This document shows positions 1,492-59,698 of a stretch of DNA of 64,000 nt, piece by piece. How positions within the stretch are numbered: the stretch's first letter is position 1; each line of letters opens with the position of its first letter. The notes under the pieces were generated by a model. The model had not been told where the DNA came from and searched no databases. It saw nothing but the letters and a program-made list of their open reading frames with translations. The translations under genes and the position numbers were made by a program. The DNA is from Physcomitrium patens (Eukaryota > Streptophyta > Bryopsida > Funariales > Funariaceae): NCBI RefSeq assembly GCF_000002425.4, contig NC_037265.1, forward strand, positions 16,270,760-16,334,759, given 5' to 3'.

Positions 1492-1503
1492 CACTCTTAT
1501 CAA
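1492..1503 (-). other. Putative self-priming primer-binding site, chromovirus A
   Basis: The plus strand reads CACTCTTATCAA, two bases from the LTR edge at 1506. In element sense it is TTGATAAGAGTG, fully complementary to the presumed 5' end of the element's own transcript (1678-1689). A tRNA-Met-like motif (TATCAGAGC in sense, plus strand 1474-1482) lies 23 nt away from the LTR edge, too far for a usual primer site. Confidence 0.55.
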
Positions 1504-1505
1504 TC

Positions 1506-2055
1506 TATCAAGGACAAGAACTTGATAAAAATAAATAAATAAGTGAGACTTTTCTCAAAGAAAGATGACAAAATAGAAATAATTAAAGATATATATTAAA
1601 AAAGAAATTATAATGGCTGTTGCCAAAAGACAAGAAAACTAGAAATCCTTGAAACTAGACTATAAGCAAGAAAGGAGTTGATAAGAGTGAAGAAGGCTTC
1701 ATTCTTGCCTCTGTATATACTATCTACCTAGAAGCTATATGGTGACGTCCTATACGACCTCCAAAAACGTATTGACTTTACACAACATGCATCTTAACTT
1801 GCAAAGTAAGTTTTTTATATTGGTACCACATTGTTAGCTTGTTTCGCAAGCTACCAACATATATGGCACGTGATTAACTTGTTGACTAAGTTTTTAACCT
1901 ACAAATCAAGTTTAAATACATGTAAAGTCAAAGAAGTGTCTATAGAGCTTCTAAGAAGCTTCTTTAGAAGATATTATGAAAATAATCTATTTTTATCTAA
2001 TTCTACCTATTCATATTATATATATAATAATTACAGTAAATATATGTCCCTGATA
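1506..2055 (-). repeat. 5' LTR of chromovirus A
   Basis: About 550 bp, matching the LTRs of copies B and C along its length. The plus-strand edges are TATCAAGG and TGATA, corresponding to TGTCA and TGACA in better preserved copies. It contains the TATA-like box and the palindrome described separately. A 123-codon open frame at 1831-2202 runs out of this LTR and is not a gene. Confidence 0.8.
1678..1720 (-). promoter_or_regulatory. LTR A core promoter: TATA-like box and start-site palindrome
   Basis: In element sense, a TATATA-like box (1714-1719) is followed by an inverted repeat. The arm that contains CACTCTTATCAA (plus strand TTGATAAGAGTG, 1678-1689) begins about 30 nt downstream of the box, a normal TATA-to-start distance in plants. 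These 12 nt are exactly complementary to the 12 nt beside the LTR at 1492-1503. The start-site assignment is inferred from spacing only. Confidence 0.5.
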
Positions 2056-27829: not shown

Positions 27830-28371
27830 TGTCAAGGACACAAATTAGAAGAAGCATAAAGTCATAGAATCTGCGTCAAAAAGAAAGTAATAAAATAGAA
27901 AAAAATATGTATATTTAAAGAAGAATTGGAATGACTATTACCAAAGACTAGAAAACATAAGATTCTTAAAATTAGACTAAAAACCAAGAAAGGAGTTGAC
28001 AAGAGTGAGGAAGGCCTCACTCTTGCTTCTATATATACTACTTAAGTAAAGAATATGTGGAGATATACTATAGGACCTCTAATATATGTCCAACTTATAG
28101 GACACATGTCTAATTTGCAAAGGAAGTTTTCTAGGTGTACGCCATATGTCCAACTTGTACTACAAGTAGTCAACATGTCAATATGTGGCCTCCTTATTGG
28201 CCAAATTTTTAACCTATCAATCACCTATAGACATGTATAAAAGCAAAGCAACATCTATAAAGCTTCTAGAAAGCTTTCTACAAGATATTAACATATTTCT
28301 CTACTTTGACTTACTTCTACCTATTCTTATTATTTAGATAATTATTAAGATAAATATGCATGTCCATGATA
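27830..28371 (-). repeat. 3' LTR of chromovirus B
   Basis: 542 bp, closely matching 36307-36851. It contains TTGACAAGAGTG (27996-28007) beside the TATA-like box, the presumed transcript-start arm. Confidence 0.85.
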
Positions 28372-28390
28372 TTACCCCCTCTTCTAGGGA
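28372..28390 (-). other. Polypurine tract, chromovirus B
   Basis: In element sense, an A/G run (GAAGAGGGGG followed by TAA) abuts the 3' LTR, as needed to prime plus-strand synthesis. Copy C has the same at 52593-52611. Confidence 0.7.
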
Positions 28391-30205
28391 TGAGTTCCAC
28401 GAGGAGCAATGATTATATGTAGATGAAGTTCAAGATTCACCAAATTGTATTTGTCATATATTTTGATCTTTATTCTCTTTGAAGGTAGTTGATAGGTTCT
28501 TTCAACCATCAATAATGTTCCATGTCAGGACAAGAAGACCAACTTGATATTTGATTATTATTGAGGCCTTCATAACTTCCTTCAAAAAAAATATTAACAA
28601 TACCATTAGGAATGGTTTCTATCTCTAAAAGTATCACTAAACACCAAGAGTCCCTTCGAAGGTCATGGTACGAAACACATTATATTTTGCTATCTATTCA
28701 AGGAAGAATATGTTGTTTTTGAGGATCTTCATTTCAATTTCATCATCTCGAAGGTTGTGATAGCCATAATGTCTTGTCTAATAGCTCAACAAATGATAGC
28801 TCTTTAATTGAATCTGTTGGTTGTTGATTCTCCATCTCCTAAGCACTAAAAAATCTAAAGAAATAATAATATAAGTTAAAATGAAATCTCTATTAGGCTT
28901 GCTTCACTTTATATCAAAAAATTTCTTGACTCTTCATCTTAGTTTTGATGGATGTCATTGATGAAAAGCTTTAACTTTGGCTCATGTATTTGCTAGATTC
29001 CTAGACGAATTCCATTTGCATTCATTAATGTCATATCCATACCAATGTACTAGATATTTTAACCTATTTTGGCATTGCCTTGAATCTAAGACTTCTTCCA
29101 CTTCAAATTCTTTATTATTCTCCACTTCTATAGGAGGTGGTGGCATTTATCTCCTTCTTTGTATATCCATTGTCTTATATTGCTTAAGTAAAGACACATA
29201 GAATACATGATGGATTTTTATAGACTTTGGCAGGTATAATCAATAAGCAATTGGATTGATCTGTTTACAAATGGGAAATAATCAAAGCCTATGGTAATCC
29301 AGCTTGTCAAAAAGATGAATAATTTTAATATTATGACAAAGTAACCATACCTTATTCCCCACATAGAATTGAATTTGTTCCTTGTAATAGACATTTGTAT
29401 TGGTTTTTTTGTCGTTCTTGAGTTTCTTTTAATTGTACCTTCATTGTTGCATGTAGCTCTAACGATTAATTTTTCACATCTACCGTACAGAATTATCAAC
29501 TTTTAAAAAGTCAAAAGTATCTAATTATCAATGATAATCATAATTGGCAAAGAAATATGTTTATTGAATAGAAGAATGTACCAAATTATTGTAAGCAAAC
29601 TCTGCCAATGGTAAAAGAATTGTACAATCATCTTGTTGATAGTTAATGGTATATATCAAATATTACTTTGAAACTTGATTTACCTATTTTGTTTGATCAT
29701 CAATTTGAGGGTGAAAAGTTGAAGATCGTTTTATATCTACCTCCAATATTTTGAAAAGATTTCTCCAAAATATTGATAAAAACTGTATTCTTCTGTCTGA
29801 TATAATATCTTTTGGTAATCTATGATAGCAATAGATGTTATCAAAGAAGAATTTAGTTATTTTTTAACTTGTAATAGATTTTGTATATAATAAAAAATGT
29901 GCCATCTTGGTAAAATGATCTACAATCATGAATATGGAATCATATGAACTTGAAATTAGAAGATCCGTGATAAAATCTAAAGAAATAAAAGTCCATGGTT
30001 GTTCTAGAATAGGTAATGATTGGAAGAGTCTATAAGGTCGATGATGAGGAGTTTTTGATCTTGAACAAATATCACATGTCTGCACAAATTCTTTAAAGCC
30101 TTCTACATTTGAAGCCACCAAAAATATCAGGATATAAGCTCCAAAGTCTTATTATATCCAAAATATCTTATTGCAAGGAAATTGTGATAAGCTTTAAGAG
30201 GACGT

Positions 30206-31535
30206 TGTCATGTGGCGTGATTTGCAATATAGAAATACATAGGGTATGTAATTGTAGAGAGTTTAGCTTTGGCTTATATATGATGTCTTAGCTCCCAAAA
30301 ATCCCTTTATTTGTATAAAAGTTTAAAATATAACAAAATCCTTCAAAACATTTTTTTCTTACAAAATATATTTTTATCCTAAACTTTGAAAATTCATATC
30401 TCTTGATCCAACCATTCAATTTTTTTAAAATTTCTATGTGACATAAATTTTATCCTTAAACTTTATCACAAAAAAAATGAATTATAAATTTTTTTCCAAT
30501 CTTTAGGCATCTTAGAAATCTTAGCAAGTGCTCTAAATCCTAATCTACAAGCACCCAAAAACTATTTTCTTCATATCTCAAAAATCTAGAATCCAAATTC
30601 CAAAAAACTTGTATATATAATTTGATTACATGAAAATATATATTTTTAGAAATATTTAGCCAAAATCTTATCAAATTGCATAAGATATAGCTTAAAATAC
30701 AACTAGTAGTAATTTGGATCACTTACTACCTTCAGATTTACAAGCGTTGATTTCAATCTTCAATATCTCCTCTATTTAAACTTAAAATCCATTATGCAAT
30801 ATGCCAAAAATATAGCTGAGAGAGTGCTATCTCTAACTCTAGTCACCGATCCTCTATTCCTTTCTATAAGCATGTGTTATATCTAAAAGAGTGATAGTAG
30901 GTACAAAATCAACACCTCTATTTTGAGTACCTATATCTCTTTCATAAAAATTCCAAATGACTCAAAATTTGCACCAAAACCATAGTCAAAATTTTAAACT
31001 TGCTGATCTTATCCTCCAAAGCTCAAATGCCCTTGAAAGACTAACCCTAATCCCTAATATGGCCTTGGACAGCCTCCTTGAAGCCCATTGGTCATGATTT
31101 TTGACCAATAAGAATGGAGATTTTCATCATCCATCTCCATTCATCTATATGGATGCCCTAACTTCTTTTTTTTGCTACCAAGACCCCTCTCCAGTCATTT
31201 TTTTTTTATAAGATTTATATAATATATGTCCTAAATATCAAATAATAGAAATAAAATAAGACTTTAAGGGTCACAAATATCTTACAAAGGTGACTCTAAA
31301 TGTTTAAAAGTTACTACTAATAAGTTCAACTTCAAAGTCACTATCAAAAGAAAATAAAGTTATATAAATTCTAATAGTAGCCTTTTTAAATAATCTCTTT
31401 CTGAGGTAGTAATCTATCCACATCTTATAATTAAAAAAAATCCACTAACATAGCTCTCACCATGTTGTCTACTATATTGTGTATTAAATATATAAATATA
31501 TTATTTTCACATAGTAGCCAAACCACAACATGACA
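30206..31535 (-). mobile_element. Solo LTR B1 (E/D-like family) in integrase of chromovirus B
   Basis: 1330 bp with exact inverted ends TGTCATGT...ACATGACA, flanked by ACGT on both sides (30202-30205 and 31536-31539). Comparison with uninterrupted copy C near 54418 confirms the junction. It carries the same interior as B2 and C'. Confidence 0.85.
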
Positions 31536-32704
31536 ACGTAATCGTGCTTTTTTTTTTGGAACATATAAGCATCCTTCAAAATAAAGTAGGTTTTTCTTAA
31601 ATTCAAATTTGGAAGGATTTTGAGACTTAGAAGAATTGTTTTTAATATCATGAAGAAGAAGGTTTGAAGACATACTTACTTAGATCTTCTTAAGAAAGTC
31701 AAATCAATAGTCAATGTTGATTTCATTGTTTAGATATTAAATTATTTTGGCTTCAGTAAAATTCTCTTTTGTTAGTCAAAATCTGCTTTTCTTTCTTTTG
31801 GTGTAAGATAAGAATATTTAGAAAAGGCATCAAACAAACCTTGTTATTTTCTTAGCTGATAAGTAATATTAAATTTGAATCTTGATAAAGACATACTCCA
31901 ACGAGCTTGACAATGATTCAACACATGTTGTCATGAAATATTTGAGGTTCTTGTGATCTGTATATATGGTGACTGGACTTGAAGGGCCTTCTAAATAATG
32001 ATGCCATTCTTAAAAAGAATCCATAATTGCAAGAAGTTCCTTATCATGGATCTCATAATTAATCTCAACTGTTGAAAATTTTCTTGAATAAAAAGCTACT
32101 AGATGAAATTTTTCATCTGTTCCTATTTGTGATAAGATTGCATCAAAGGTAAAGTCAGATGCATTTGTCTCCATAAAAAATGCTTTAAAAAAGTCAACAC
32201 AATATAGGATTGGTGCAAAAGTAAAAGCTTTCTTCAAAACTTCAAATGATGCTTTTGCTTCTTCACTCTACTCAAGCTTATCTTTACAAGTTAAGCATAT
32301 AAGTAGCACTGTATGTTAAAAAAAATTCTTGATGAAGATCCGATAGTAATTGACAAATCCCCAAAAGCATTGTATATCTCTTATTGTTTTTTGAGACTTC
32401 TAGTCCATGATTGTGTAAACTTTTTTAGGATCCATCATTAGACCATTATTTGAAATGATGTATCATAAGAGGTCAACTTGAGTAATGTGGAATATATTCT
32501 TTTCTATCTTAGTGTATAATCCCTTATCTCTAAGTTTTTATAACACACGATGAACATAAACTTCATATTCTTTTACATCGTTAGAGTAGATTAACATATC
32601 ATCTAAGTAGTAAACAAAAAAATCATCTAGAAATTCATATAAAACATCATTCATAAGATGTTGAAAAGTAGCTAGTGCATTCATGAGTCCAAAAGGCATG
32701 ACAT

Positions 32705-34031
32705 TGTCGTATGACGTGATTTGCTATCTAAGAATATATTAGATATCTAGCTATAGAGAGTTTAGCTTAAACCTTTATATGAATCTTATCTTAGCTTCCA
32801 AAACTCCTTTGATTTGCATAAAACTCAAAATATAATAAAATCCCTTTAAAATATATTTTTCATGCGAAGAGTTTTTTCGTTCCAAACTTTAGAAATTCAT
32901 AACACTTGATCTAGCTATTTAGTTTGTGTCAGATTTATAGGATGGGTAGAAGTCACCATTAAATTTTATCACAAAAAAATCAACTACAAATTCACTTTTG
33001 ATCTGTTGGCATCTAAGAAATCCTAACAGATGCTCTAAACCCTAATTTACAAGCACTTGAGCACTATTTTCTGAATATCTCAAGAATCCAATATCCAAAA
33101 GTCATCAAACTTATATTTAACATTTATTAACATAAATTTATACATTTTCTAAAATTTTGAGCCAAAATCTTGTCAAATTGCACAAGATATAGCTTAAGAC
33201 ACAACCACTAGTAAATCAGGTCATGTACTACCCTTAAAGTGCATGCGCCGACTTCAAAATCCAATAACTCCATCCCAACTTGAAATCTAGCAAGCAGTAT
33301 GCAAAAAGTGTAGTTGCAGAAATGCTCTCTCCAGTCGCAATTGCCGATCCTCAATTGCCTTTTGTACATATGCGTTATGCCAAAAAAAGTGATAGAAGCT
33401 TTTAAATCAATACCTTAACTTTGAGTGCCTATATCTCTTTTATATAAACTCCAAATCATATAAGATTTGCACCAAAATCATAGCCAAAATCCTAAACTTG
33501 CTGATTGTAGCCTTCAAAGCTTGATTTGCCTCGAAAAACTAACCCTAATCTCTAATATGGCCTCAGGCAGCCTCCTCAAAGCCTATTGGTCATGATTTTT
33601 GACCAATATGAATGGAGATTTTTATCATCCATCTCCATTTATCTATATTGGTGCCTTAATTACTCCCTTTGCTACCAAAATCCTTCTTCAATCCTTTTTC
33701 CTATAAGATTTACATATTTTATGCTCTAAACATCAAATAAAAGAATCAAAATAAGTTTCAAAGGTCACTAATGTCTAACAAAGGTGATTCTAAATATTTA
33801 GAAGTTACTACCAACCAAAACCAATCTTAAAAGCCACTATCAAAAGAAAATTAAAGTTATATAAATTCTATAGTAATCTTTTTAAATAACCTCTTCTCAA
33901 CGTAATAATCAAATTATATTCTTTAACCAACTAAAATCTACTAACATGGCTCTCACCATGTTACTTAGTAAATTATATATTAAGTACATAATTATATTAT
34001 TTTCATATAGTAGTCGAACAACAATACGACA
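32705..34031 (-). mobile_element. Solo LTR B2 (E/D-like family) in reverse transcriptase of chromovirus B
   Basis: 1327 bp with ends TGTCGTAT...ATACGACA, flanked by ACAT on both sides (32701-32704 and 34032-34035). Copy C near 55590 shows the intact target (GACATTGTATTC). It is close to B1 in length and sequence. Confidence 0.85.
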
Positions 34032-36292
34032 ACATTATATTCAAAATATCCATACCTTATTTGAAATGTAATCCTCCATTCATCTCCTTCTTTAATGTGG
34101 ATCAAATTGCAAACTAATTGTAGATCTATTTTTACATAGGTCTTAGCTTAATTTAATTGATTAAGAAATCTAGATATCAAAGGTAGAGGATATCTATTCT
34201 TGATGGTAAACTTCTTGAGTCTTCAATAATCTACACACATTTATAATGATCCATCATTTTTCTTCACAAATAAGATAAGAGGTCTTGTAGGAGATTTTGA
34301 ATGGCATATGAAATTCTTGGCCTAGTTCTTATTAATGTACTTCTTGAGTTTTGCCAACTCATTTTGTAATAAATTATAGATTGAACCAAATGGCAACTGA
34401 ATTCCTTCTTTAAGATCAATTCAGCAATCATATTGAAGATGCTCCTAGAGAATATCTGCATTCTTTTTCTCAAAAATATCTTAAAAAACTTAATATTGAT
34501 TTGGAATTTCACTTGAAATCTTTCCATCATTTAAAATGGATGTGGCATAAATAATAAAATACAATCCTTCTTTTGCAACATACAAAAAAGATTTTGTACC
34601 TAGAAGTATAGATTTGACTATACTAGACTCTTGGCTTTCTATTAGATTAGGAAAATTCTCAATGATGTTCAAAGAAAAGTTAAGTTCATAAGAAATCTAA
34701 TCTATCATTGGATTATACTTTTCTAGCCATGATAAATCTAAAATAACTAGATTAGAGGGAGATCTATTTATATTAAAAATTACGCAACTATTATGACCAT
34801 TTATTACTATATCTATAGAAAGTGTTTCATGAATAACATCTCTTGAAGATAATGGATGACCATCTATGACTTCTACATATACGGATTTAGTTTTTTGTAG
34901 TAATTGTATATTATGAGTTTTAAAACATTCTTCATCTAAAAAACAAGTAGAGGGTCTTTAATCTATTTAGGCAAAGGCTTTGTGGTTATTAGATTCTAAA
35001 TGCACATCTATTATAAAATAAAGAGAGGGTTTTTGAGGAGAGAATAGGACCTTCATTAGAAATTGTATAAGATTCCAGCTGCATGGTCCCTATTGTAGCT
35101 GGACAAATTTATTTTTCGACATGTTTTCATCTTTGATAGTAGTACTCCTTATTTTATAGTTGTGTCATTTATTTGGATAATTTTGAGTAGTGTACTTAGC
35201 TTCTCTATAATATAAACTTAGTCATTTTTGATAATGACGAGTCTTTTCTTGTTTGGTAAGAGATTTAAAATGTACTCTATTAATTTGCATGACTTTTACT
35301 TCCAAATGCTTAGATTGAAAATTTATTAGTATTGACATTGAATTGTAATAACGTTGAGGTTCTCTTATGTGATTCTCAGATCAAAAACTCAAAAAGTCGA
35401 TTGTCACATTTCACAGCAAAGTCAATTATTTGACTCAATGTCTGAGGATCACGTAAATTGAGCATCAATTTCTTTACTTTATATTGTAATTTATTGAAAA
35501 ATTGGCTGATGAATGCTGCATCATCCCACTTGATATTTGTCGCTAATTGTCAAAATTATAAAGCATATAATATCATTGATCAATTACCTTATCGCAAGTT
35601 ACAAAACTTGTTGGTTGTAACACGGATTGCATCATGTTTTCCATACATAGATCAAAACTCCACTAAGAATGCTCCCAAATTATCTAATATTGGATCAAGT
35701 CATTTAAGAAATGATGAAAACCATAATAAAGTAGAATCTAAAAGTAATATTTTAATAAACCTGACTTATGATTCTTGAATTGGATAACTTTGAGGTTGTA
35801 GTTCAATCACCAATTGTACCTAATTGATGAATCTTCAAAACTTAGATCTTGTGCCATCAAACTTCTCAAGCAATCTAATTTTTGGTTCTTTGAAACTTGA
35901 ATGATATTCTATTGTAGAAATAGTAATATGATTTGGTGTAGATGTTGAAGCAACTCCAATCATCTCTATATCTTCATTGCTTGATAATCTTATTGCTCCT
36001 TGTGGTAGAAGAGTGAGTTGATGTATTGTAAGTATTAATTCTCTCATTTGCTCTTCCATTTGAGTCATTGCATTCTTCATTTCAGCAAGCTTTGCTATGC
36101 TAGTACAATAAAAAGAAAGGTGTCTATTCTCACAAAATATAATGCTCAAGAATCAAGATTTTTTTTTTTTTCTAAAAACAATATCAGTTTAGAAGAGGGT
36201 AATCTATAACTTCTAATATGCTTATGTCTTATCAAGAATAAGGGATAATCCATTTTTAATCAAGAAAAGACAAAGCTTTAATATTGTATGCA

Positions 36293-36304
36293 CACTCTTG
36301 TCAA
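36293..36304 (-). other. Putative self-priming primer-binding site, chromovirus B
   Basis: The plus strand reads CACTCTTGTCAA, ending two bases before the 5' LTR. It is exactly complementary, in element sense, to the presumed transcript start in the LTR (plus strand TTGACAAGAGTG at 36476-36487 and 27996-28007). Confidence 0.55.
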
Positions 36305-36306
36305 TT

Positions 36307-36851
36307 TGTCATGGATACAAATTGGAAGAAGATGCATAAAGTCATGGAATTTGTATCAAAAAGAAAGTGAAAAAATAGAAGAAAGTATGTATATTTAAAG
36401 AAGAACTGGAATAGCTATTGTCAAAGACTCGAAAACATAAGATTCTTAAAACTAGACTAAAAACCAAAAAAGTAGTTGACAAGAGTGAAGAAGGCCTCAC
36501 TCTTGCCACTATATATACTACTTAATTAAGGAATATATGGAGACATGCTATTAAACCTCTAATACGTGTCCAACTTGCAAGACACATGACTAATTTGTAA
36601 GGCAAGTTTCCTAGATGTATGCCATATGTCCAATTTGTATTATAAGTGGTCAACATGTCGACACATGGCATTTTTGTTTGCCAAGTTTTCAACCTATCAA
36701 TCACTTATAGATATGTATAAAGACAAAGCATCATCTATAAAGCTTCTGGAAAGCTTTCTACAAGATATTATTATATTTATTTACTTTGATTTATTTCTAC
36801 CTATTCTTATTATTTAGATAATTATCAAGATAGATATGTATGTCCGTGACA
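36307..36851 (-). repeat. 5' LTR of chromovirus B
   Basis: 545 bp. In element sense a TATATATA box is followed 30 nt later by CACTCTTGTCAA (plus strand 36476-36487). Confidence 0.85.
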
Positions 36852-38188: not shown

Positions 38189-38375
38189 TGTTGTATCATG
38201 TTTGTATATATTATATAAAAATTAAATAAGAACTATGAAATCTATTAATTTTTTGCTTGTATTTACTAATTTAAATAAAATATTTAGAAAAATGATTAGA
38301 AACAAGAATTAATTGATTAATTAAATATTAGATTAGAATAAAGATTAATAAAATTATATTTAAAATTATATATAT

Positions 38376-38412
<37 letters not shown>

Positions 38413-39351
38413 TGAATTCTATTATCAATAAGTATTGTAGTTGCTAAAAATTAAAAAGTAAGTTTATATAAGGAAAAAATAGAATTTAGGATAATTAATT
38501 TTTAGAGTTTTTATTTAATATAAAATTTTATAGATATATTTTTAGTAGGAATATAAATAGATATATAAATTTTATAGATATATTTTTAGTAGGACTATAA
38601 ATAGATATATAAATTTTATAGAAAAATAAATTATGATTTGTAAGAAATAGAGATTGAAAGAAGGAGAAGAGATTGAGCAACAAGCTTATAGGGAGAAGAA
38701 TTGAGGCTTTTGACATCAAGTAGTGACTTGGGTTTGTAGAGGTAGGTAGATGATAAAGTGCTTGGGTGGCATCTAGGAGGATCCCACAATGTCCATTAGG
38801 AGATTATGTTGAATGACAAGGACACTTGTCATCTATGGGTGGGAGCAAGGAATCTTCTTTAATAGTAGCATGATGTGTGATGCCTATGCCTTTTATATAT
38901 TCATATTTTTAATAGATTGGTATATAGCTTCCTCTAAAAAAGAAGAAATCACAAGTTGGTTATGGCTTAAAATGAGATGATATCAATCCTAATTTTTACT
39001 TTTTTTTTAAAAAAATATACATATTTAAATATAAATAGAAATAATTAAGATTTAGAGTTTTGAAGTAGGATTTAGGATTTAGGGTTTGGAAGTAAGGTTT
39101 AGGATTTAGAGATGGGAGCAACCATCTTAAGAAGAGGATTTAAGGACTCTTCAGAGGAGTTTTGGCTCTCTTGTATTTCTATTTTACAAATGTTTAAGAA
39201 AAAGAGATTTTTTGATATGAGGGTAAGTAAATCTACAAAGAATTCATGGTATATGGAATGTTGTGAATATTTTAGAGTTATAAGGTAGTAAATCAATTAG
39301 TAGCAGTAAGAAGCCCAATATTTTTTTAAGACAAACTCTCTCTCTATGACA
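38189..39351 (+). repeat. 5' LTR of element D
   Basis: About 1163 bp, ending CTCTCTCTATGACA. It is followed by TATTGGTGCTTCCACTGAGAG, the expected position of a primer-binding site, although I cannot assign the tRNA. An AT run lies at 38380-38409. It lacks about 110 bp present in the 3' LTR (the B-box-like segment near 48240). Confidence 0.8.
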
Positions 39352-40194
39352 TATTGGTGCTTCCACTGAGAGAGCATTGAGGCACTTATTGCTTTGCTAG
39401 GGACAATGAAAGATGTTGATTTAGGTTTTGGAATGCAAAGAAGAGATACTTCAAATAACTTATTTTAAGCATTTACACAATTTATGGAGCAATAGCAACA
39501 AGTTCAAGAGTAAGCCGAGGATACTACAAAAGCCTTGCAAGCTGTTGTTGGCAAGATTAGAAAATTTGAAGGAAAGAACATTATCAAATTTTTTAGGATT
39601 TATGTATGCAAGATGAAAGTATATCAAGTTCTAGAGGTAAAGATGATTGCTTTTGATCTCGGTGTTATTTCCAAAATTAAAAAAAAAAATGAAAGAGTTG
39701 TATGAAGATTCTATCTCTTGGAGCAAATATGTAGAATGACTCAAAGACGAATTTTTTGAAGAAGATTTATAAAGAATAACCAAGAGATCATTTTTGGAGT
39801 AGATTGGACAAAGGCTTGGATGTCAAATAGACCCAAGTGAGTTAATTAAGGATTTTGAGAAGAAATTCGGTCAATTATCAAGGTATGAAAGATAATTTCT
39901 TGATACAAGTAAATTTGAGTTATTTTTGCAAGCAAAAAATGATGATTTAAGAAAAATTTATCCTTTCATTTAGAAAATAAGATATCTGAGAATGGCTTTA
40001 TTAATGATTGAAAAAAGATAAAGGAGGCAGTTGGACTTTCAGCTAAGCAACAAAAGCTCAAGATTCAAAATTATCCATCACAATTAAATCTAGTGCCTAC
40101 TGTCTAAACTTCTTATCAACTCAAAAGATGAGTAAGGTTACTTGTGATGAAGCATAGGAAGAATTAATCAAAGATATGAAAAATTTGAAGGTGG

Positions 40195-40287
40195 TGTGAG
40201 TCATCAAATTGACTCATTTATTGTTTTAGTTCCTTCACCAAATAATTAGAGATATTCTAACTAAAAGAGACAAGTACTTGATGAGAC

Positions 40288-40333
<46 letters not shown>

Positions 40334-42046
40334 AAGAATTAAAAGAAGGTATCTTAGTAAACATCCAAAGAGCATAGAGGGATTGATCAAGTGAGAGGTT
40401 TTCAAGTGAGTGTCCCGAATTTGAATCTGATTGGAAAAAAAAGGCTATCATAATTAGTTAGTGTTAGTACAAGAAAAGACCAACCTTGACATCCAACAAA
40501 TATATAGACCTTAGAAGGTTGATAGTAAAATCCTCTCATATTAAAGAGACATTTGAAAAGATCACTTTTTTATTTCTTAGCTCTGATTTCTTTTTTTATA
40601 TATAATCTTTGAGTCTTAGATTAGATTTAATTTTCTTTATCTTCTTTGTTTAGATCTATAGGATAAAAAATACTTTAGTTCTTTTAGATTAGAAGTAAAG
40701 CACTTATTTTAATCTTAAATAGTTATTAAAATACTATTATAAATAATTCTTCTTTTTATTCAATAGCATTTTGGAAGGTCAATTCTAGGTTCTTCTTCTT
40801 TGCAAGTCGTCCCAAATGGTCGCCATGCGTGACTCATCAAATTGACTCACTTATTATTTTAGGATAAAAATATGTATTTAGAATGCTTTAAAACATAATA
40901 TATAATAAGTAGTATAGAAATCCTCACAGAAATAGAAAATTAGAATGTTAGTAGTAGAAATAGAGTCTTAATAAGTCTTGAAGGCAATTATCTACATTGG
41001 TTTAGTACTTTCATTCATTGTTGAATAGTAAGAATTATTTATTAATACCAATATTTTTATTGGTCTTCTATCTATATATACTACTTATAAAAACCATAAA
41101 TTTTAGTATTTAGAAGAAGCATGAGAAAGAACCTCATATCATTTTAGTTATTGGTATAAAAAAAAATAGGATTTATAGTAGATTTAAATTGATTTTATTA
41201 CTATAAAAAATTATCAAGATAGGAAATTATAGCCTTAAATGGATATTATAATTATAAAAATATTATAATATTTGTTATAATTTATTTAAAATTTATTTAG
41301 AATTTATTTAGAATTTTTTAGGAATTTTTAGAGCAATTTTTAAGACCTTGGTAAAAATAACTTTTATCACTGGGGAAGCCATTATGAGAAAATGGAGTAA
41401 GATTTGAAGGCCATACATGGTTCCTAAGCTAATTGGGTGTTTTTAAATACCGTGTTGTAGTCAAAATTGCAAAAATGTTGGTTCTTCTAGTAGAAAATAG
41501 AAGGCCTAGCAGCTAGTGTAGTTCTTGTAGGAAGGGAGGTGCACAAGTCCTATATGGATTGTAGCACCTTGAAGGTAGTTAGGAAGATAAGACTAAGGCC
41601 TCGTGGCCTCTCATAGATATCCTTATACACTACATGTGAGCCTTGGTGAGGCTCGAATCCTTGATCTATAAGCAAATTATCCTTGAGGTAAAATATTTTC
41701 ACTTAACTTTTTATTTATTTACTTGTTATTTCAAACCTTCATAACTTATTCATAGTAACTCGGATTTATATATTTTTTACACCATTGGAAAGATAAGAAA
41801 ATTATCTATCTAAAAATATATTTTTTATTTTTTAATTTTACTTTTTACTAGGCGAAAACACAGTGAACAGACTATGACTAAGTTTTCGAGTGTGTATTTG
41901 CTTGTATACATTTCTTGCACTTGTTTGTATTGTTTTTTTCTTTTGTTCTTATTTATTGCATCTTCTACTTCATACTACCAATTACAAGAAATTCTTAATT
42001 GAGGCCATCTTATAATTTGGATAGAGGTGTGAAATTTACACTCACA
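40195..42046 (-). mobile_element. H2: deletion derivative of LTR element H inside element D
   Basis: Flanked by GGTGG on both sides (40190-40194 and 42047-42051). In the minus sense a 1221-bp LTR (42046 to 40826, TGTGAGTG...CACGCA) is followed directly by TGGCGACCATTTGGGACG, a primer-binding-site-like motif. About 600 bp of internal sequence comes next, then only the last ~37 bases of the second LTR (to 40195). The internal part includes a TA run (40292-40329) and no coding remnant. Confidence 0.75.
40808..40825 (-). other. Primer-binding site of element H2
   Basis: In element sense, TGGCGACCATTTGGGACG starts at the first base after the LTR end. The TGGCGAC start resembles tRNA-Arg-type primer sites of some plant gypsy elements; that assignment is from memory and tentative. 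Confidence 0.5.
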
Positions 42047-42324
42047 GGTGGAAATGATAGAATTGAAAAGATCTCAAAAGCGTAGTGCATCAAATGTTTC
42101 ATAAGGAACTAGAGGATATATTGAAAGATATATATTGTGTGATAGTCCAAGCCACAAGCGTGGTGAATGTGATAAGTATAAAGTGGCAATTAGAGAAGAT
42201 ATTATTTATTTCAAGGAAGGAAGGATAAGACTTTAAAGTTGTGATGAACCTCTTAGGATCAACTTCGGAGAAGGAGGTATGAAGAAATTGGTGGAAGAAC
42301 AAATCAATAAGAGAAGTACCATAT

Positions 42325-42360
<36 letters not shown>

Positions 42361-44099
42361 AAAGTCTTATGCCATTAAAATAGGATAAAGAGAAGTGAAG
42401 GTTATAGATTCATCCACAATTGATGCTATGAAGAAAAGAAGTGAGGTTATTAGAAGAATGACTAGGTGGAAAGATTTGGTTGATGCTTTGAGTATTAAAG
42501 CTTTTTTAGGTAAAGATCAATAAGTTGTTGGTCCATATGATGTTGCGGTTGAAGAAAAAAAGATAGAGTTACTCAACAAGAAAATTCTACTAATCTTCCA
42601 AACAAAAAAAGAATACTAGAGAAGAAGAAAGAAAATGAAAAAGATGTATCAAAGAAGGTCAAAGGTAAAAATCTCGCTTATAAACTTCAATCTAATATTG
42701 AAACATCTATTAATATGAAGAGTATTTTAGAAGAAAAAATTTTGGATGCTAAAATTGAATTTACCTTCAGAGATGCTCTTAGTGTAGCAAAGATGGATTT
42801 CCATAAATTGATCATTGATGTATTAAAAAGAAAGAGACAAATGATAGTCGAGGCTATTTTGATTGAGGCATTAGATACTCGAATGATTCAAGTTGAAGAA
42901 GAAGAGATAGGACATGTATTTGCCCAAGCTGCAATACCAAAAGTAAGGTAAGAAATAAACTTAAAAGATAAGACTTTGATCAATAATAATATGCTTATGG
43001 GAGTACATCAAGCACAAGAAGCTCTAGTTACAAATTGTATTAAGTACAATGATTAAGAAAAAGATGGAGTGAGTTATTCAATTTTTTATTGGACTAGAGC
43101 AACCACAGAGATACAAATAAAGCTTGGTGATTTAAATAATCCAGTATTGGCATTGGTTGATCATAGGTTAGAGATTAATATCATGTCAAGGAAGGTGTAT
43201 GAAAAATGTAAGTGGTCAATTAACATGAATCATGGATGGGTGATTAGAGTAAAAAATAACCAAGAAAGAGATCTTTATAGAGCTTATCTAGTAATAAAGA
43301 TGAGAATTGGAGATATAGAGGTGAAACAAAACTTTTTAATATAAAATTCAGCTACATATCCAGTAATTCTAAGTCAATCTTATATCACTAATACAAGAAT
43401 GGAAACTAGAGTTTTGGATGATGGTTCCTATTATATAAGGATTTATAGTTGTAATGGAAAGAGAGAAGTACAATTTCCTATAATTAAGTCTATTTATGAC
43501 AGGCATTGTGATCAATTAAGGAAAGCATCTTTGAAACCCAAAAGTAGATTTTTGGATTTCTAGAGAGCATCCTTGTAAAAAAGGGATACAAAGATGCAAA
43601 TAAAAATTATGCCAACTCCAATATAAATATTTTGAATAATATATTTTTGGATTTGAATAATAATAAGGTTTATGAATTTTAAAAAAATTAAAGATTTGAA
43701 TTCAGTAAATAGAAGAAAGATGAAGAAACAAGAAAAAACTTTAAAAATATGGATTTGATTTCAAGAAAAGAAGCTATAGATAGAATAATAGAAGAAGTAG
43801 GTTTAAAAGATGATTTGATGATGGTTTTGGAAAGCATAGCAAAGAAAAAAAAAAGAAGAAGTATGGATAAATTTGCATTCAAAAGAAACTTATAAAGAAT
43901 TAAAGGAAGTATAGAAAGTATGGAAGATAGTACTAGCTATAGGCTAAAGCGTGAAGCTATAGTTCAAACAAAGTATAAGACAATAGCTAAAAAGGTTAAG
44001 CCAAAAGCTACTCAATTACCACTCGATACCATGAAACATATCAAGTAAGCACTTAAAAAGCCAGAATTAAGGGAGAAGCAAAAGATTGAACATCAATTC

Positions 44100-47000: not shown

Positions 47001-47700
47001 ATCTATTTATATTCGAAGTTATTTTTAGCTAATATAAGAACATTAAAAAGATGAGAGCAGATAGAGGAGAATTAGATGCAATAGAGGCAAGAGAATTCTT
47101 CAAAAGATATAGAATTCAATTAAAATTAACTACCTCTTATAAGCTGAAAGTAAATGGTAAAAAAAAAGATGTCATTTTCTTATCATTAATGCATTAGTAA
47201 AAGCTTGTAAAGGTAAATCAATACAATGGCCAAAACTGCTTTCGTTTCCATTATAGGCTGATAAGACTATTCATAGTACAGTGACCAGTTACATGCCCAT
47301 TGATTTGATGCTAGGACAAAAATCAATGATGCCAGCTAAAGAATCTTATCCCACATAGACTTTTTTATCTTAGAAAGATGGAATTGATAGAGAATGCCTA
47401 TTGGAACTTTGAATTCAACAATGAAGGAGGCTACTAAAAGATTTAGAAGTAGCAATAGAGATATTAAAAGCAGCTCAGTTGAAAAATAAAGAAAGATTTG
47501 ATAAGAGATTGCCACTTATTGTTTACATGAGTTAGATGGAACAATTATCAAAAATCCAATAGCAGATAAGAGAATGAAGGTCTTTAAGCAAAGATATATA
47601 AGGATCAACAAAAAAGATAATATTGGCTCTTTACAACAACAAAAAGAAGGAGAAGAAGAAGATAAAGAATTGAAGGCAATATTGATGGAATCTGAAGAAA
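44100..47700 (+). pseudogene. Element D reverse transcriptase, RNase H and integrase remnants
   Basis: RT begins near 44100 and is split by F2 at 44284-45011. It resumes with WHLKPISIP and RFIQDMQPANN. The open frame 45264-45602 carries F-L-D-D at the polymerase active site (ILFLDDIQ). The next frame, 45606-45920, holds the C-terminal RT motifs (RKPNPNKI, IKRFLDACVFY). RNase H-like sequence is at about 45960-46380. Integrase remnants follow at 46600-47400, with the zinc-binding and core regions full of stops. A purine-rich stretch precedes the 3' LTR. Confidence 0.7.
44284..45011 (+). repeat. Unclassified dispersed repeat F2, inserted in element D RT
   Basis: Flanked by TATTC (44279-44283 and 45012-45016). 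Removing it restores a continuous RT reading (FTMPHI followed by Leu). It starts TGTAGAATAG and ends CTATACAGGTT, so the 3' end is not a canonical LTR end. F1 (37295-37780) is related. Confidence 0.65.
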
Positions 47701-51759: not shown

Positions 51760-52031
51760 TGAATACCCAATTTAAGATGAAGAGAACTTGATGGAGATGG
51801 AAAATGCTCTTGTAAATTATCAAGATGTATACATTCATGTGAATTTGAAGAAGGGTTGTCTTTGTCATTGTGCATGCTATCATCATCCAAACTTGGTGCA
51901 CGTGCCAAAGAAAGAAGGTTTAAAAGGTTGAGTCCTAAACTTGTAGTAATCCATGGATTTTTTAGTCATGCATATTATTTATATACTTCTGCTTGATTCT
52001 CCTTAAGTTTTTTCAACATATGATGACCATC
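51760..52031 (-). pseudogene. Older gag-like remnant G, downstream half (interrupted by chromovirus C)
   Basis: The minus-strand reading continues the frame at 59699-59850 across the chromovirus C insertion. The reading ending in Ala-Met-Glu-Asp-Gly upstream is followed here by HHMLKKLKENQAEVYK. Further downstream a Ser/Asp-rich segment (LDDDSMHNDKDN) follows. It looks like the N-terminal coiled-coil part of a retroelement gag, with stops. The five bases CCATC at 52027-52031 are the target duplication shared with 59699-59703. Confidence 0.5.
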
Positions 52032-52592
52032 TGTGAAGGACAAGAACTCGATGAAAAAGCAATTCAGACAAGTGAGCCTTCACTCAAAGAAATGTAACAA
52101 AATATAAATAAATAAGTATGTATATTGAAAGAGAAACTGGAATGGCTATTGCCAAAAGATAAAGAAACTAGAGATCCTTGAAACTAGACTGTAAGCAAGA
52201 AAGGAGTTGACAAGAGTGAAGAAGGCTTCACTCTTGTCTCTATATATACTATCTAACTAGGGGCTATGTGGCAACATTCTATAGGACCTCAAATATGTGT
52301 TGATTTTGTAGGACACATGCTTTGACTTACAAGGCAAGTTTTTCTATATGTGGGCCACATAGTTAGCTTGATCTTCAAGCTAACAACATGTGTGGCACGT
52401 GGCTAACTTGTTGACCACGTTTCTAATCCAAAAAATCAATTAAAGACACCTATGAAGTCAAAGCAGCATCTATGAAGCTTCTAGGAAGCTTTCATATTAA
52501 ATACTATAGAATTAACTTACTTTAACTTATTTTTACTTACTTCCACCTATTTGTATATGTAATTACTAGCTTACATGAATATGTTCGTGACA
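52032..52592 (-). repeat. 3' LTR of chromovirus C
   Basis: 561 bp. It contains the perfect 13-base inverted repeat GACAAGAGTGAAG/CTTCACTCTTGTC (plus strand about 52208-52237) just downstream, in element sense, of the TATATATA box. Confidence 0.9.
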
Positions 52593-52611
52593 TTATCCCC
52601 CCTTCTAGGGA
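52593..52611 (-). other. Polypurine tract, chromovirus C
   Basis: In element sense AGAAGGGGGG followed by ATAA directly precedes the 3' LTR. Confidence 0.75.
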
Positions 52612-53150: not shown

Positions 53151-54554
53151 TCATCTTGATTTTGATGGATGTCGTTGATGAAAAGCTTCCACCGCCTTTG
53201 CTGCATTTGTAAGATTCTTTATTGGCTCCCATGTACATTCACTAATATCATATCCGTGCCAATGGACAAGATATTCTAATTTATTTTGGCCCCGTCTTGA
53301 ATCTAAGACTTCTACTTCAAACTCTTCATTATTGTCCACTTCTATAGGAGGAGGTGGAGCTTGTCGTCTTCTTGGTATGTCCACTATCTTGTATGGTTCA
53401 AGAAGAGATATGTGGAATACTTGATGGATTTTCATTGACTCTGATAGATGTAAACGATATGCAACTGGATTGATTTGTGCAGAAATAGAAAATGGTCCAA
53501 GTCTTCGATAGTCCAACTTGTCACAAGAAAGAATAGTCTTGATATTATGACAAAGTAGCCATACCTTATCACCCAAGAAGAATGGAGGTTGTTCCTTTTG
53601 ATAGACATCCGCATTCACCTTTTGTTGTTTTTGAGCCTCTTTTAACTGCGCCTTCATCGTTACATGTAGCTCTGATAAATGAATCGCCAAATCTTTTGCA
53701 GCAGGATTATCAACTTTTGAAAAGTCAAAAGTATCAAGTCATGGATGATAACCATAATTAGCAAAGAAAGGTGTTTGTTTTGTAGAAGAATGTACCGTGT
53801 TATTGTAAGAAAACTCTGCCAATGACAAAAGAGTTGTCCAATCATCTTGTTGATAGTTAATGGTACATCTTAAATATTGCTTTAAGACTTGATTAATACC
53901 CTCCGTTTGTCCATCAGTTTGAGGATGGAATACCGAAGATAGTTTTATATCCACTTTTAGAATCTTGAAAAGAGTCCGCCAAAATCTTGATACAAATTGA
54001 GTTCTCCTATCTAATATAATATCTTTGGATAATCTATGATAACGATAGATATTATCAAGAAAGAGCTTAACTATTTCTTCACCCGTGATAGATTTTGTAC
54101 ATTGTACAAAATGTGCCATCTTGGTAAAACGATCTACTATCACGAATATAGAGTCATAAGAACCTGAGATTGGAAGATCCGTGATGAAGTCCATAGAAAC
54201 AAAAGACCATGGTTGTTCTGGAATGGGTAATGGCTAAAAAAGTTTGTAAGGTCGATGATGAGGAGTTTTTGATCTTTAGCAAACATCACATGATTGTACA
54301 AAATCTTTGACTGCTTTCCACATTTGTGGCCACCAAAAATCCTTGGATATTAGTTCCAAAGTTTTATTGTATTCAAAATGTCCCGCTGCTGGGAAGTCGT
54401 GACGAGCTTGAAGAATACGTAAACATGCTTCTCCTTCTGGAACATATAGGCATCTTTTGAAATAGAGTAAGTTGTTCTTGAATTCAAATTTAGAGGGATC
54501 ATGAGATTTAGAAGAATTATTCTTGATATCATGAATAAGAGGATCTGAAGACAT
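53151..54554 (-). pseudogene. Chromovirus C integrase and chromodomain
   Basis: The integrase zinc finger (54276-54554) keeps H-x5-H and C-x2-C spacing (RHDFPAAGHF, CDVC). The core follows at 53739-54236, with the first Asp (MDFITDLP), second Asp (LDRRTQF, where the following Gly is Arg) and final Glu (QTEGINQ) present. The C-terminal region ends in a chromodomain (about 53151-53330) with V-L-D-S-R and LEYLVHWHGY...CTWEP. Such domains bind methylated histone tails and direct insertion into heterochromatin. Stops at 54276, 54234 and 53739 stand where Gln, Gln and Arg codons are expected. Confidence 0.9.
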
Positions 54555-54557: not shown

Positions 54558-55121
54558 TCACTGGACTTGCTTAAGAAAAGTTAAATCAACAGTCAATGTT
54601 GATTTTATTGCTCGAAGATAAAATTGCTCCGGCTTCAAGTGAACCATTCTTTGTTGCTCAAAAGCTGCATCTCCTTCTTTTGGTGCAAGATAAGAATGTC
54701 TAAACAAGGCATCAAACAAATCTTTTTGTTTTTCTGGCTGATAAATGATGATGAATTCGAATCTTGATAAAGACATGCTCCAACAAGCTTGACGATGATT
54801 TAATACGCGTGTTGACATAAAATACTCGAGGTTATTGTGATCTGTATATATGGTGACTGGACTGAAAGCACCTTCTAGATAATGATGCCATTCTTGAAAA
54901 GAATCTATAATTACAAGAAGTTTTTTGTCATGGATCTCATAATTGATTTCTGCTACTGAGAATTTTCTTGAATGAAAGGCTACTGGATGAAGTTTGTCAT
55001 CTCTTCCCATTTGTGATAAAATCGCACCCAAAGCAAAGTGTGATGCATCTCTTTCCTTAAAAAATGTTTTAGAAAAATCAACATGATATAAGATTGGTGC
55101 AGAAACAAACGCTGTCTTCAA
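54558..55121 (-). pseudogene. Chromovirus C RNase H domain
   Basis: 187 open codons covering the RT-RNase H connection and RNase H. The first catalytic Asp is kept (ERDASHFALGAILSQ), and the IHDKKLLVIIDSF and TDHNNLEYF boxes are recognisable. It degrades the RNA strand during reverse transcription in active elements. It is open in frame but separated from RT by stops, so it is not made as part of a working polyprotein. Confidence 0.85.
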
Positions 55122-56636
55122 AGATTCAAAAGTAACTTCCGCTTCTTGATTCCATTGGAGTTTGTCTTTATTAGTTAAACGTGTAAGTAGAGCTGTAACT
55201 CGAGAGAAATCCTTGATGAAGATCCGATAGTAGTTGGCAAATCCTAAAAAGCATTAGACATCTCTTATCGTTTTTGGGATCTTCCAATCTATAATAATTT
55301 AAATTTTCTTAGGATCCATCACAAGTCCATCATTTGAAATGATATAACCTAAGAAATTGACTTGAGTAGTGTGGAATACACACTTTTCTATCTTAGCATA
55401 GAATCTTGCATCTCTTAATTTTTGTAACACATGAGGAACATGAGGTTCATGTTCTTCTGGATTCTTAGAATAGATCACGATATCGTCTAGATAACAGACC
55501 ACAAATTCGTCCAAAAACTCTCAAAAAACATCATTCATTAGATGTTGAAAAGCTGCTGGTGCATTTGTAAGTCCAAAAGGCATGACATTGTATTCAAAAT
55601 ATCTATACCTAGTTCGAAACGCAGTCTTCTATTCATCTCCTTCTTTGATACGTATTAGATTGTATGCCCCTCGCAGATCTATTTTTGTATAGATCTTAGC
55701 TTGATTCAGCTGATCAAGAAGTCCAGATATTAAAGGTAGTGGATATCTATTCTTGATGATAATCTTGTTGAATTCTCGATGATCAACACACATCTGCAAT
55801 GATCCATCTTTTTTCTTCACAAATAGAATTGGAGCTCCTGTCGAAGATTTAAAATGGCGTATGAAATTCTTAGCTAGATTTTCTTCAATATACTCCTTGA
55901 GTTCAATCAACTCATTTTGTGATAAACTGTAGATTGGTCGGAATGGCGATTGTGCTTCTTCTTGAAGGTCAATTGAACAATCATAGAGACGGTGTTTCGA
56001 GAGTGTATCCGCATTCTTTTTTTTGAATACATCTTGAAATTCTTGATATTGGCTTAAAATGCCACTTGAAGTCTTTCCACCAGTAGAAATAGATGTGGCA
56101 TAAATAATATATGGTGATTCTTTCATAGCAGCATGCAAGAAAGCTTTTGTACCTATAAATACGGATTTAATTGAACTGAACTTATGACTCTCTACTTGAT
56201 TGACTACACTGTTAGTTATACTTTTAGAGCAAGTAAGTATTTGGAAAATCCAATCTATTTGAGGGTTGTATTTTTCTAACCATAATAAACTTAAAATGAT
56301 TGGATTAGAGGAAGATCTAATGATATTAAATACTACAAAGCTATTATGACCATTGATTATTACTTCTATTGGAAGGGTTTTGTGAGTAATATCTCTAGAA
56401 GACAATGGACGACCATCTATGACTTCTACATGAAAAGGTTTAATTTTCTTTATTAAAGATATGCTATGTCTTTTAGTAAATTTTTCATCTAAGAAATATG
56501 CTGAGGCTCCTGAATTTAACAAGGCAGAGGCTTTATAATATTTAGGTCCTAAAATAACATTTAATGTAAAACAAAGAGAGGACTCTGAGGAGAGAATAGG
56601 ACCTTTACTAGATGTTGTGCAAGGTTTCGGCCGCAC
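55122..56636 (-). pseudogene. Chromovirus C protease and reverse transcriptase
   Basis: The 335-codon frame from 56636 holds retropepsin and the first half of RT. The protease triad reads N-S-G at about 56508-56516, so the catalytic Asp is Asn. RT motifs include KKKDGSLQMCVDHREFN and the KIDLRGAYNLIRI segment. A TAG at 55629-55631 stands for Trp. The polymerase box Y-L-D-D is intact at 55482-55493 in the next open piece (55299-55514). Further stops at 55521, 55300 and 55254 stand for Arg or Gln. The gag/protease junction is disrupted by solo LTR C' at 56637. Confidence 0.9.
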
Positions 56637-57714
56637 TGTATCGGGATAGAGAGAGTTTGCCTCAAGAAAATGCTAGGCTTCTGGCTATCATTAATTATTC
56701 AATCAAGCTTGAAAATAAAAGAAGCCCTAAGTTTATATATAATTTTTCCCTTTTGAGTAATTACACCAAATACACAATCCTCAAGTAATCCACAACTTCC
56801 AAAATATGATAAAATCTTCTAAAACCTTGTTTATTCTTATGTGGATATTTTTCCGAACTTCAACACCTCATATCTCCTAATCCGACTGTCCAAACAAACT
56901 CAAATTTTACTTAAAGTACTAATAAATTCTTATTAACTTCTACAACAAATTTCAACTACAAATTCGTTGCAAATCTTGAGATATCTTAAAAACCCTAACA
57001 GTCACTTCAAACTCTTGTCTTTATACATCCATGTGAAATTTTCTTCATATCTCACAAAATATAAGCTCAAATGCTATAAAATTTATATGTATAGCTTTTT
57101 AACACAAAAATTTACATTCTCCAAAAGTTTGAGCCAAAAATTCATCCGAATACTTAAGTTATGGCTCCAACCATTACTACAAATAAAACCGCTTACTTAC
57201 TACCTTTAATTTAGAAGCGCCGCCTTCAACTCCTTACAACTCCATATGAACTTCAAAAGTAATAATTCTTTCATGAAAGATGTAGGCCTTGAAATTGCCG
57301 TTCCAGTCGCACCTTCCGATCTTCAAAAGCTGCTGTAAAACTCCTCGTACACTCAAAAGAGTAATAGTGTGTCTTAAATAAACACCTTAACTTCAAATGG
57401 CTATAACTTTTTCATCGTAACTCCAAATCCTCTAATTTTTGTACACAAATTGTATCTCAAACCCTAAACTTTACAACCCTGGCTTATCATCTCCGAATGC
57501 TCTTGAAAGAGGAACCCTAATCCCTAATAAGGCCTCAGGCAGCCTCCTTGAAACCCATTGGGCATGGTATTCGACCAATAGGGATGAAGTTCTCCATTCC
57601 TTGCCTTCATCCGACCATGCCTTGCTTTCATCCCTTTCAATTAGCTTCCTACTAGTTTAGATTTTCATCCTTAGGTTTCCACCTTCTCCCAAGGCTTCAT
57701 ACTAAACATTTAGG

Positions 57715-57910: not shown

Positions 57911-58925
57911 ATGGTCCCTATTATAGCTGGACAAATTCGTTTTCCGACATATTATCTTCTTTCATAGCCATACTCCTCATTTTGTGATTGCGTCATTTCT
58001 GTAGACAATGTTGAGCAGTGTACTTTGGTTCTCCACAATATAAACATAATCCTTCTTGACGACGATAAGTCTTTTCTTGCTCAGTAAGAGGTTTGAAACG
58101 TATTGCATCAATTTACATATCCTCTACTTCCAAATGTATGTGTTGAAGAGGTATTGGTGTTGCCATTGAATTATAGTAACATTGAGGTCTACTTGTACGG
58201 TTCTTAGATTGAAATTCAAAAAGGTGATTGTCACACTTTACAACAAATTCAATTGCTTGACTCAATGTTTGAGGATCTGGTAAGTTGAGCATTAATTTTT
58301 TTATCTCATATTGTAATCCGTAGAGAAATTGGGTAATAAGTGCAGCATCATCCTACTTGATATCAGTTACAAGTTGTCAAAATTGTGAAGCGTACAATAT
58401 TATTGATCGATAGCTTTATTGTAAAATATGAATCTTATTGGTTGCAACACGAATTACATCATGTTCTTTATACATGGATCGAAACTCTGCCAAAAAAGCC
58501 TCTAGATTATCCAATATTAGATCTTGTTGTTCAAGAAAAGATAAAAACCACAATAGTGCTGAACTTGAAAGAAGCGTATCAATGAATCTAACTTGCGATT
58601 ATGGAGTTGGATAGCTTTGGAGTTGAAGTTCAATCACAAGTTGTACTTGATTGATAAATCCTCGAAACTTAAATCTGGTGCCATCAAAATTCTCGGGTAG
58701 GGCTATTCTTGGTTCTCTAATACTAGAAGGATGTTCCACCATAGGAAAAAGGACATGGTTTGGTGCAGATGTTGAAGAAGCTCCAACCATTTCTATATCT
58801 TCACTTCCTATCAATCTTGTTGTTCCTTGTAGTGGTAAATTAAGTTGATGCATCGCAAGCATTAACTCCCTCAATTGTTCTTGCATTTTTGCCATTGTAC
58901 TCTTCATTTCAATAAGTTTTGCCAT
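57911..58925 (-). pseudogene. Chromovirus C gag
   Basis: The N-terminal part is open at 58599-58925 (108 codons), with a coiled-coil-like start (KMQEQLRELMLAMHQL) and the PENFDGTRFKFRGFINQV segment typical of this gag type. The middle part (58100-58600) is broken by stops. The zinc knuckle is at 58005-58046. All three Cys are present, but the first His is Tyr. Solo LTR C' follows directly. Confidence 0.85.
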
Positions 58926-59124
58926 GATAATACTTAGAAAAGAGAAGATGTCTAATATCGCTCAAGACAAATAGAAGAGAGGACTTTGGAACAAAGAAAA
59001 TACTAAGGACAATATCAGTTTAGAAGAGGGTAATCCATAACTTCTAATATACTTATATCTTATAAAGAAAAATGGGTAATCTACTCTTAATCAAGATTAG
59101 ACAAAGCTCTGATATTGTAGATGT

Positions 59125-59135
59125 ACTCTTGTCAA
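59125..59135 (-). other. Putative self-priming primer-binding site, chromovirus C
   Basis: The plus strand ACTCTTGTCAA ends two bases before the 5' LTR. It pairs with the LTR transcript-start arm, intact in the 3' LTR (TTGACAAGAGTG, 52207-52218) and carrying one G-to-C change in the 5' LTR (59313-59324). Confidence 0.55.
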
Positions 59136-59137: not shown

Positions 59138-59698
59138 TATCAAGGACAAGAACTTGATGAAAAAGCAATTCAAACAAGTAAGCCTTCACTCAAAGAAATG
59201 TAACAAAATATAAATAAACAAGTATGTATATTAAAAGAAAAACTAGAATGGCTATTGCCAAAAGACAAAGAAACTAAAGACCCTTGAAACTAAATTGGAA
59301 GCAAGAAAGGAGTTGACAAGACTGAAGAAGGCTTCACTCTTGTCTCTATATATACTATCTAACTAGGGGCTATGTAGCGACGTTCTATAGGACCTCAAAT
59401 ATGTGTTGACTTTGTAGGACACATGCCCTGACTTACAAGGCAAGTTTTTCTTCGTGTGGGCCACATAGTTAGCTTGATCTTCAAGCTAACAACATGTGAG
59501 GTACGTGGCTAACTTGTTGACTACGTTTCTAATCCAAAAAGTCAATTAAAGACACCTATGAAGTCAAAGCAGCATCTATGAAGCTTCTAGGAAGCTTTCA
59601 TATTAAATACTATAAAATTAACTTATTTTAACCTACTTTTACTTACTTCCACCTATTTGTATATGTAATTACTAGCTTACATGAGTATGTCCGTGACA
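59138..59698 (-). repeat. 5' LTR of chromovirus C
   Basis: 561 bp with edges TATCA and TGACA. A TATATATA box and downstream palindrome are as in the other copies. Confidence 0.9.

Follow-up and report, generated by a model that had tools for sequence, protein, structure and literature searches.

In Tf1 of Schizosaccharomyces pombe, the primer-binding site (PBS) pairs with the first 11 bases of the transcript, and cleavage by RNase H falls between bases 11 and 12 (PMC7175516); the leader of this element requires three duplexes (PMC10085805). Among plants, most elements of the Tcn1 clade lack a tRNA-type PBS and are predicted to prime themselves, which is predicted for no other group of plant chromoviruses, and the Tcn1-clade chromoviruses concerned occur in mosses and club-mosses (PMC6317226). 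Tcn1-like elements of Physcomitrella and Selaginella carry group I chromodomains (PMC3350952), and PpatensLTR elements have been placed in Tcn1 (PMC2864245). Here, we describe a family of long terminal repeat (LTR) retrotransposons in a 64-kb stretch of Physcomitrium patens DNA (the window, to which all positions refer). We consider it likely that this chromovirus, itself most likely a member of the Tcn1 clade, uses its own RNA to start reverse transcription, as Tf1 and sushi elements do.

Self-priming of this family had been proposed in an initial annotation of the window, which also implied that such priming would be novel for a plant. This novelty is not supported, as moss chromoviruses of the Tcn1 clade have already been predicted to self-prime (PMC6317226). 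Given a moss host and a group I chromodomain as in the moss Tcn1 clade, self-priming is no surprise here; the mechanism is likely, and a moss element with a self-priming signature of the Tf1/sushi type is of a kind already known. What is added is a concrete prediction of primer, PBS, and start site for a moss Tcn1-type element; plant self-priming, so far a prediction only in the accessible literature, can thereby be tested to the single base in a moss that is grown in the laboratory.

Complementarity at the LTR junctions

The window contains three copies (A, B, and C) of one family, all on the minus strand, which is the element sense used throughout. Their LTRs are ~542-561 bp long and, where better preserved, have the ends TGTCA...TGACA. 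Copy A consists of the 5' LTR (1506..2055, scanned as 1506-2053; degraded start TATCAGGG) and the portion downstream of it as far as the edge of the window. Copy B spans 27830-36851, with its 5' LTR at 36307..36851 (TGTCACGG...CCATGACA) and its 3' LTR at 27830..28371. Copy C spans 52032-59698, with its 5' LTR at 59138..59698 (TGTCACGG...CCTTGATA) and its 3' LTR at 52032..52592. A target duplication, GATGG, is found on both flanks of copy C (52027..52031 on the 3' side and 59699-59703 on the 5' side) and, together with the TGTCA...TGACA ends, fixes the LTR edge, in agreement with the initial annotation. The flanks of copy B, TCTGA and TTTAA, are two transitions apart, so that a target duplication is only plausible in this case.

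In copy B, the 5' LTR ends with ...CCATGACA at 36307 and is followed by AA and then by the PBS-like segment TTGACAAGAGTG (36293..36304). Over 12 nt, the latter is the exact complement of the LTR segment CACTCTTGTCAA (36476..36487), the putative self-primer, which is also carried by the 3' LTR of this copy (28007-27996). The same relation holds in copy A, where TTGATAAGAGTG (1492..1503) and CACTCTTATCAA (1678..1689) are complementary in 12/12 positions. In copy C, TTGACAAGAGTA (59124..59135) has an 11-nt match with CACTCTTGTCAA in its own 3' LTR (52218-52207). The matches in copies B (12 bases) and C (11/12) are as initially annotated; copy A had not been used there for the pairing. The annotation had further placed the 12 bases of copy B two nt inside the 5' LTR; the distance of 2 nt is correct, but the segment lies outside, downstream of the LTR end. 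This spacing of 2 nt after the LTR is found at all three 5' junctions.

The primer segment also has a constant position relative to a TATA box, which reads TATATACA in copy A and TATATATA in the other two copies. Counted from the first T of this box, the A of CACTC follows at 31 nt in each copy, close to the 30 nt estimated before, and CA stands at the predicted start. From the TATA box, the transcript of copy B is predicted to start at the A at position 36486. A search of the whole window for TTGAYAAGAGTR, allowing at most one mismatch, returned 8 sites compared to 2.2 expected, and every one belongs to a junction or an LTR of one of the three copies.

For the 16 nt that follow the LTR, the longest run complementary to any part of the LTR was compared with dinucleotide shuffles of the LTR. 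Of 5000 shuffles per copy, the observed length was reached by 3 for copy A, 2 for copy B, and 17 for copy C (3' LTR); some of the LTR edges used in this test were 1-8 nt off. With corrected edges, the other 14-nt windows of the element interior were scanned, and a run of at least 11 nt was found in 0/1471 windows of copy A, 9/7897 of copy B (three of these with 12 nt), and 4/6511 of copy C (3' LTR). The figures from both analyses take no account of the coincidence with the TATA box, and those of the three copies are not independent because the copies are related.

The 12/12 pairing of copy A is preserved by two matched changes, G to A in the LTR segment and C to T in the junction segment, with a G-C pair in B and C corresponding to an A-T pair in A. 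In a simulation of independent decay at copy A rates, all 12 pairs survived in 1.0% of the runs; in 0.4%, they survived and one or more of them had changed on both sides. The rates were taken outside the paired columns of copy A and rest on few changes. Over the three copies, 94% of the cells pair in the observed register, compared to 31-44% when the partner is shifted by 1-3 columns. As far as can be judged from aligned sequences, the compensatory pair in copy A supports the self-priming mechanism, though it represents one event.

If self-priming operates, transcription of a presumably active element would begin ~31 nt past the TATA box, with ACTCTTGTCAA as the RNA 5' end and the start at ACTCTTGTC. 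The first 11 RNA bases would fold back to TTGACAAGAGT, 2 nt past the 5' LTR; RNase H would then cleave after base 11, and from the released end the minus strand would be extended through U5. Plus-strand synthesis would later copy the primer, and the PBS would in this way be renewed from the primer in every cycle. Such a renewal would explain the paired change in copy A.

Evidence for and against self-priming

When the three copies were folded together by RNAalifold without constraints, an 11-bp primer/PBS helix was obtained as the outermost helix, plus a small U5 hairpin. This result and the compensatory pair in copy A strengthen the proposal of self-priming made in the initial annotation. Folded singly, copies A and C form the primer helix with a median probability of 0.93-1.00. 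A duplex resembling U5-IR (TCAAGGRT with GTCCTTGA) was seen in copies A and C, where 1/300 and 7/300 shuffles, respectively, had one as good. The family thus resembles Tf1 (PMC7175516, PMC10085805) in that a U5-IR-like pairing is possible in two of the three copies. It is unlike Tf1 in that only parts of the three-duplex 'pretzel' can be recognized, the third duplex of a Tf1-type leader being weak and at differing places among the three copies, and in that the moss element is known from DNA sequence alone. Scans of the window returned no Rfam family at the gathering threshold and, by ARAGORN, no tRNA.

Several observations weigh against self-priming. With its own 5' LTR, in which the primer segment (59313..59324) reads CAGTCTTGTCAA with one mismatch, copy C has a 9-nt exact run only, owing to one further change, and runs of at least 9 nt are not rare (127/6511 interior windows of copy C). 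The compensatory pair is a single one among three related rows, and column shuffling gave values as high in 147/500 cases, which is not significant. In single-sequence folds of copy B, the median probability of the helix was 0.18, 0.00, 0.68, and 0.28 at four lengths. Shuffled controls formed the helix (>0.5) in 83/100 (A), 93/100 (B), and 57/100 cases (C), copy B doing worse than most of its controls. Because the controls form the helix too, and copy B falls below its own, single-sequence folding adds little beyond complementarity, and folding was dropped as independent evidence. The U5-IR-like duplex was not seen in copy B by the shuffle-controlled search that was applied to A and C. Finally, a 2010 study reports no evidence for self-priming in a Tcn1 element from Selaginella (PMC2864245).

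Three other explanations of the complementarity were considered. A tRNA-Met-like motif, TATCAGAGC, starts 23 nt past the LTR edge in copies A and C, and copy B has TATTAAAGC at equal spacing, so that the motif, its distance, and its degraded state in B are as initially annotated. Most plant chromoviruses are primed by tRNA-Met, and the present element might be so primed via this motif; the complementarity would then be incidental. The motif matches 9 bases of the usual tRNA-Met PBS, and its spacing is kept in A and C. However, the bases that should pair with the CCA of the tRNA read CAA rather than TGG, the target duplication of copy C and the end of its 3' LTR place the LTR edge 23 nt away, and the motif of copy B has two changes while its 12-nt pairing stays intact. 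A tRNA site abutting the LTR was looked for in all three copies, and in none of them do the first 23 nt beyond the LTR contain TGG, the complement of the tRNA CCA. The family thereby differs from the tRNA-Met-primed plant chromoviruses (Tekay, Reina, CRM, and Galadriel), as it lacks a TGG-led PBS abutting the 5' LTR. We therefore regard priming by tRNA-Met as highly improbable. A contrast is provided by a second LTR element on the plus strand (LTR at 38192-39351, partner LTR ending at 48978), where TATTGGTGC directly follows the LTR, with the TGG at 3 nt that is typical of tRNA priming, and where the LTR match amounts to only 6 nt.

Chance complementarity gains some weight from the low GC content of the window (32%) and from the shared ancestry of the copies, due to which the three matches are not independent. 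We take it to be extremely improbable, since only 2-17/5000 shuffles per copy reach the observed run anywhere in the LTR, even before the distance to the TATA box and the matched change in copy A are counted. The remaining alternative builds on a palindrome in the LTR, of which the putative self-primer is the 3' arm. In the 3' LTR of copy C it reads GACAAGAGTGAAG-CCTT-CTTCACTCTTGTC (52209..52238) and has a perfect 13-bp stem, the longest among the five LTRs examined. The 5' arm, CAAGAGTG, is similar to the PBS-like segment; the complementarity could be a by-product of this palindrome or promoter dyad, unrelated to priming. When each LTR was searched in full for its longest perfect stem and compared with mononucleotide shuffles, none of 300 reached the 13 bp of copy C. 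The longest stems of the other LTRs have 10 bp (5' LTR of C), 9 bp (5' LTR of B), 11 bp (3' LTR of B), and 7 bp (5' LTR of A), which were reached in 1, 6, 1, and 110 of 300 shuffles, respectively; the stem of copy A is thus nothing unusual. Yet the match at the junction, where the sequence is TTGAC as opposed to GAGAC or GTGGC in the LTR, runs past the arm, and the G to A change in the primer of copy A is matched in the PBS-like segment and not in the U3 arm. Moreover, a palindrome by itself leaves unexplained why a copy should stand 2 nt after the LTR. This origin of the complementarity appears very unlikely to us.

A palindrome across the predicted transcription start

The palindrome spans the predicted transcription start and is thus located at the predicted U3/R border. 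In the alignment of the five LTRs, 94% of the palindrome cells pair, compared to 45-62% when the arms are slid against each other. In the 3' LTR of copy B, both partners of one pair have changed, and 189/500 column shuffles gave values as high. The hairpin energy is about -19 to -20 kcal/mol for both LTRs of copy B and the 3' LTR of copy C, -16.7 kcal/mol for the 5' LTR of copy C, and -7.8 kcal/mol for copy A.

As the predicted start lies inside the palindrome, the hairpin could form at the 3' primer copy of the RNA but not at the 5' one. The palindrome might thus mask the primer: the 5' RNA copy would be devoid of the U3 arm and free for the PBS, whereas the 3' copy would keep both arms and be locked in the hairpin. 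We consider such a role doubtful. If true, masking would pick the correct primer copy automatically, as an added layer on Tf1-type self-priming, and would explain how an RNA that primes itself but contains its primer twice engages the right copy. Neither a covarying primer/PBS pair, nor a U3/R palindrome, nor masking of this kind was found in the open-access literature on self-priming elements, as accessible in partial text, and prior publication is possible.

Coding regions, clade assignment, and other features of the window

Copies A, B, and C are old and degraded copies of a P. patens chromovirus. Their reading frames are broken, and the identity between 5' and 3' LTR is 94% in copy C and 85.7% in copy B. 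Polypurine tracts, as read from the sequence, directly precede the 3' LTRs of copy B (AGAAGAGGGGGTAA, 28372..28385) and copy C (AGAAGGGGGGATAA, 52593..52606). A 1.3-kb stretch occurs twice inside copy B (30201-31537 and 32700-34033), the two being 76% identical and ~2.5 kb apart from start to start. In copy C, the sequence ACAATATCAG at the TATCAGAGC motif pairs with CTGATATTGT further downstream, as seen by eye only; this pairing is kept incompletely by A and B.

The pol pieces of copy C, all on the minus strand, cover protease and the N-terminal part of reverse transcriptase (55629..56672), RNase H (54558..55253), and the integrase C-terminus with the chromodomain (53151..53738), in the Ty3/gypsy domain order. 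The chromodomain is of group I: F, W, and Y align with CDY1 and in a 16-row alignment at what we take to be the aromatic cage positions. A group I chromodomain and a host among the non-seed plants or fungi, the two features used to recognize the Tcn1 clade, are thus both found (in copy C and with the moss, respectively), and from its sequence the element most likely belongs to this clade.

The gag of copy C is present as two pieces of open reading frame (58599-58961 and 58416-58598, together 58416..58961 on the minus strand). The latter has a weak match to DUF4939, presumably the gag domain of the sushi/RTL type. The initial annotation had considered the gag to be of this type, and the match (E 4.4e-05) speaks weakly for it; at 23.8 bits, it is below the curated Pfam cut-off of 29 and is the best among five gag pieces, the other four of which gave no match to this domain. 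The likeness to sushi-ichi and to the RTL/PEG10 gag is confined to this one sub-cut-off match. A structure search with the gag returned unrelated matches only (E 0.5).

Among 120 listed of 180 matches to the integrase/chromodomain piece, the eukaryote named is the moss Ceratodon purpureus; among 120 listed of 1528 matches to the RNase H piece, it is the fern Adiantum nelumboides. The lack of seed-plant names among the listed matches is no evidence, because most are without an organism and only proteins of similar length were admitted. In a comparison of the integrase/chromodomain piece with viral contigs, there were 17 pattern matches, none of them a relative, and the junction pattern had 0 matches in viral contigs. 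Among genome contigs, the 21-nt junction pattern had one match, in a bacterial metagenome-assembled genome; the 201 bases around it contain no LTR-PBS junction, and the match was taken as chance. Records from Streptomyces and Kitasatospora (matches P0190 and P0250), with contigs 1.1 and 2.8 kb in length, contain proteins that are 66-69% identical to these pieces of the retrotransposon, and are probably eukaryotic contamination.

PpatensLTR1 and PpatensLTR2 of the Tcn1 clade (PMC2864245, PMC6317226, PMC10085805) resemble the present family in the moss host, a chromodomain with aromatic cage, the lack of a tRNA PBS, and predicted self-priming. The chromodomain-bearing RLG1 is the most abundant family of P. 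patens (PMC7466625). The present family may be one of RLG1-3, and its likeness to the PpatensLTR elements is drawn from published descriptions. Self-priming has also been predicted for plant elements of the TAR lineage (Houba and Osr-1; PMC6317226), but these are Ty1/copia, whereas the moss element has the Ty3/gypsy domain order and a chromodomain.

The second LTR element (38192-48978, plus strand) is old, has LTRs of ~1.2 kb, and shows sub-threshold matches to DUF4100 and reverse transcriptase in its interior. Also on the plus strand are a complete six-exon gene for a TPR-thioredoxin protein (TTL1-like; 8664-11951), with 99% identity to a P. patens UniRef entry over 90% of the query, and broken Ty1/copia pieces (17483-22626), in which the integrase core and RVT_2 were matched. 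The near-identity of the TPR-thioredoxin protein identifies the host as a moss rather than a seed plant. A direct repeat of ~0.5 kb with 85% identity (15358-15860 and 16186-16691) is preceded by degenerate TTTAGG-like runs.
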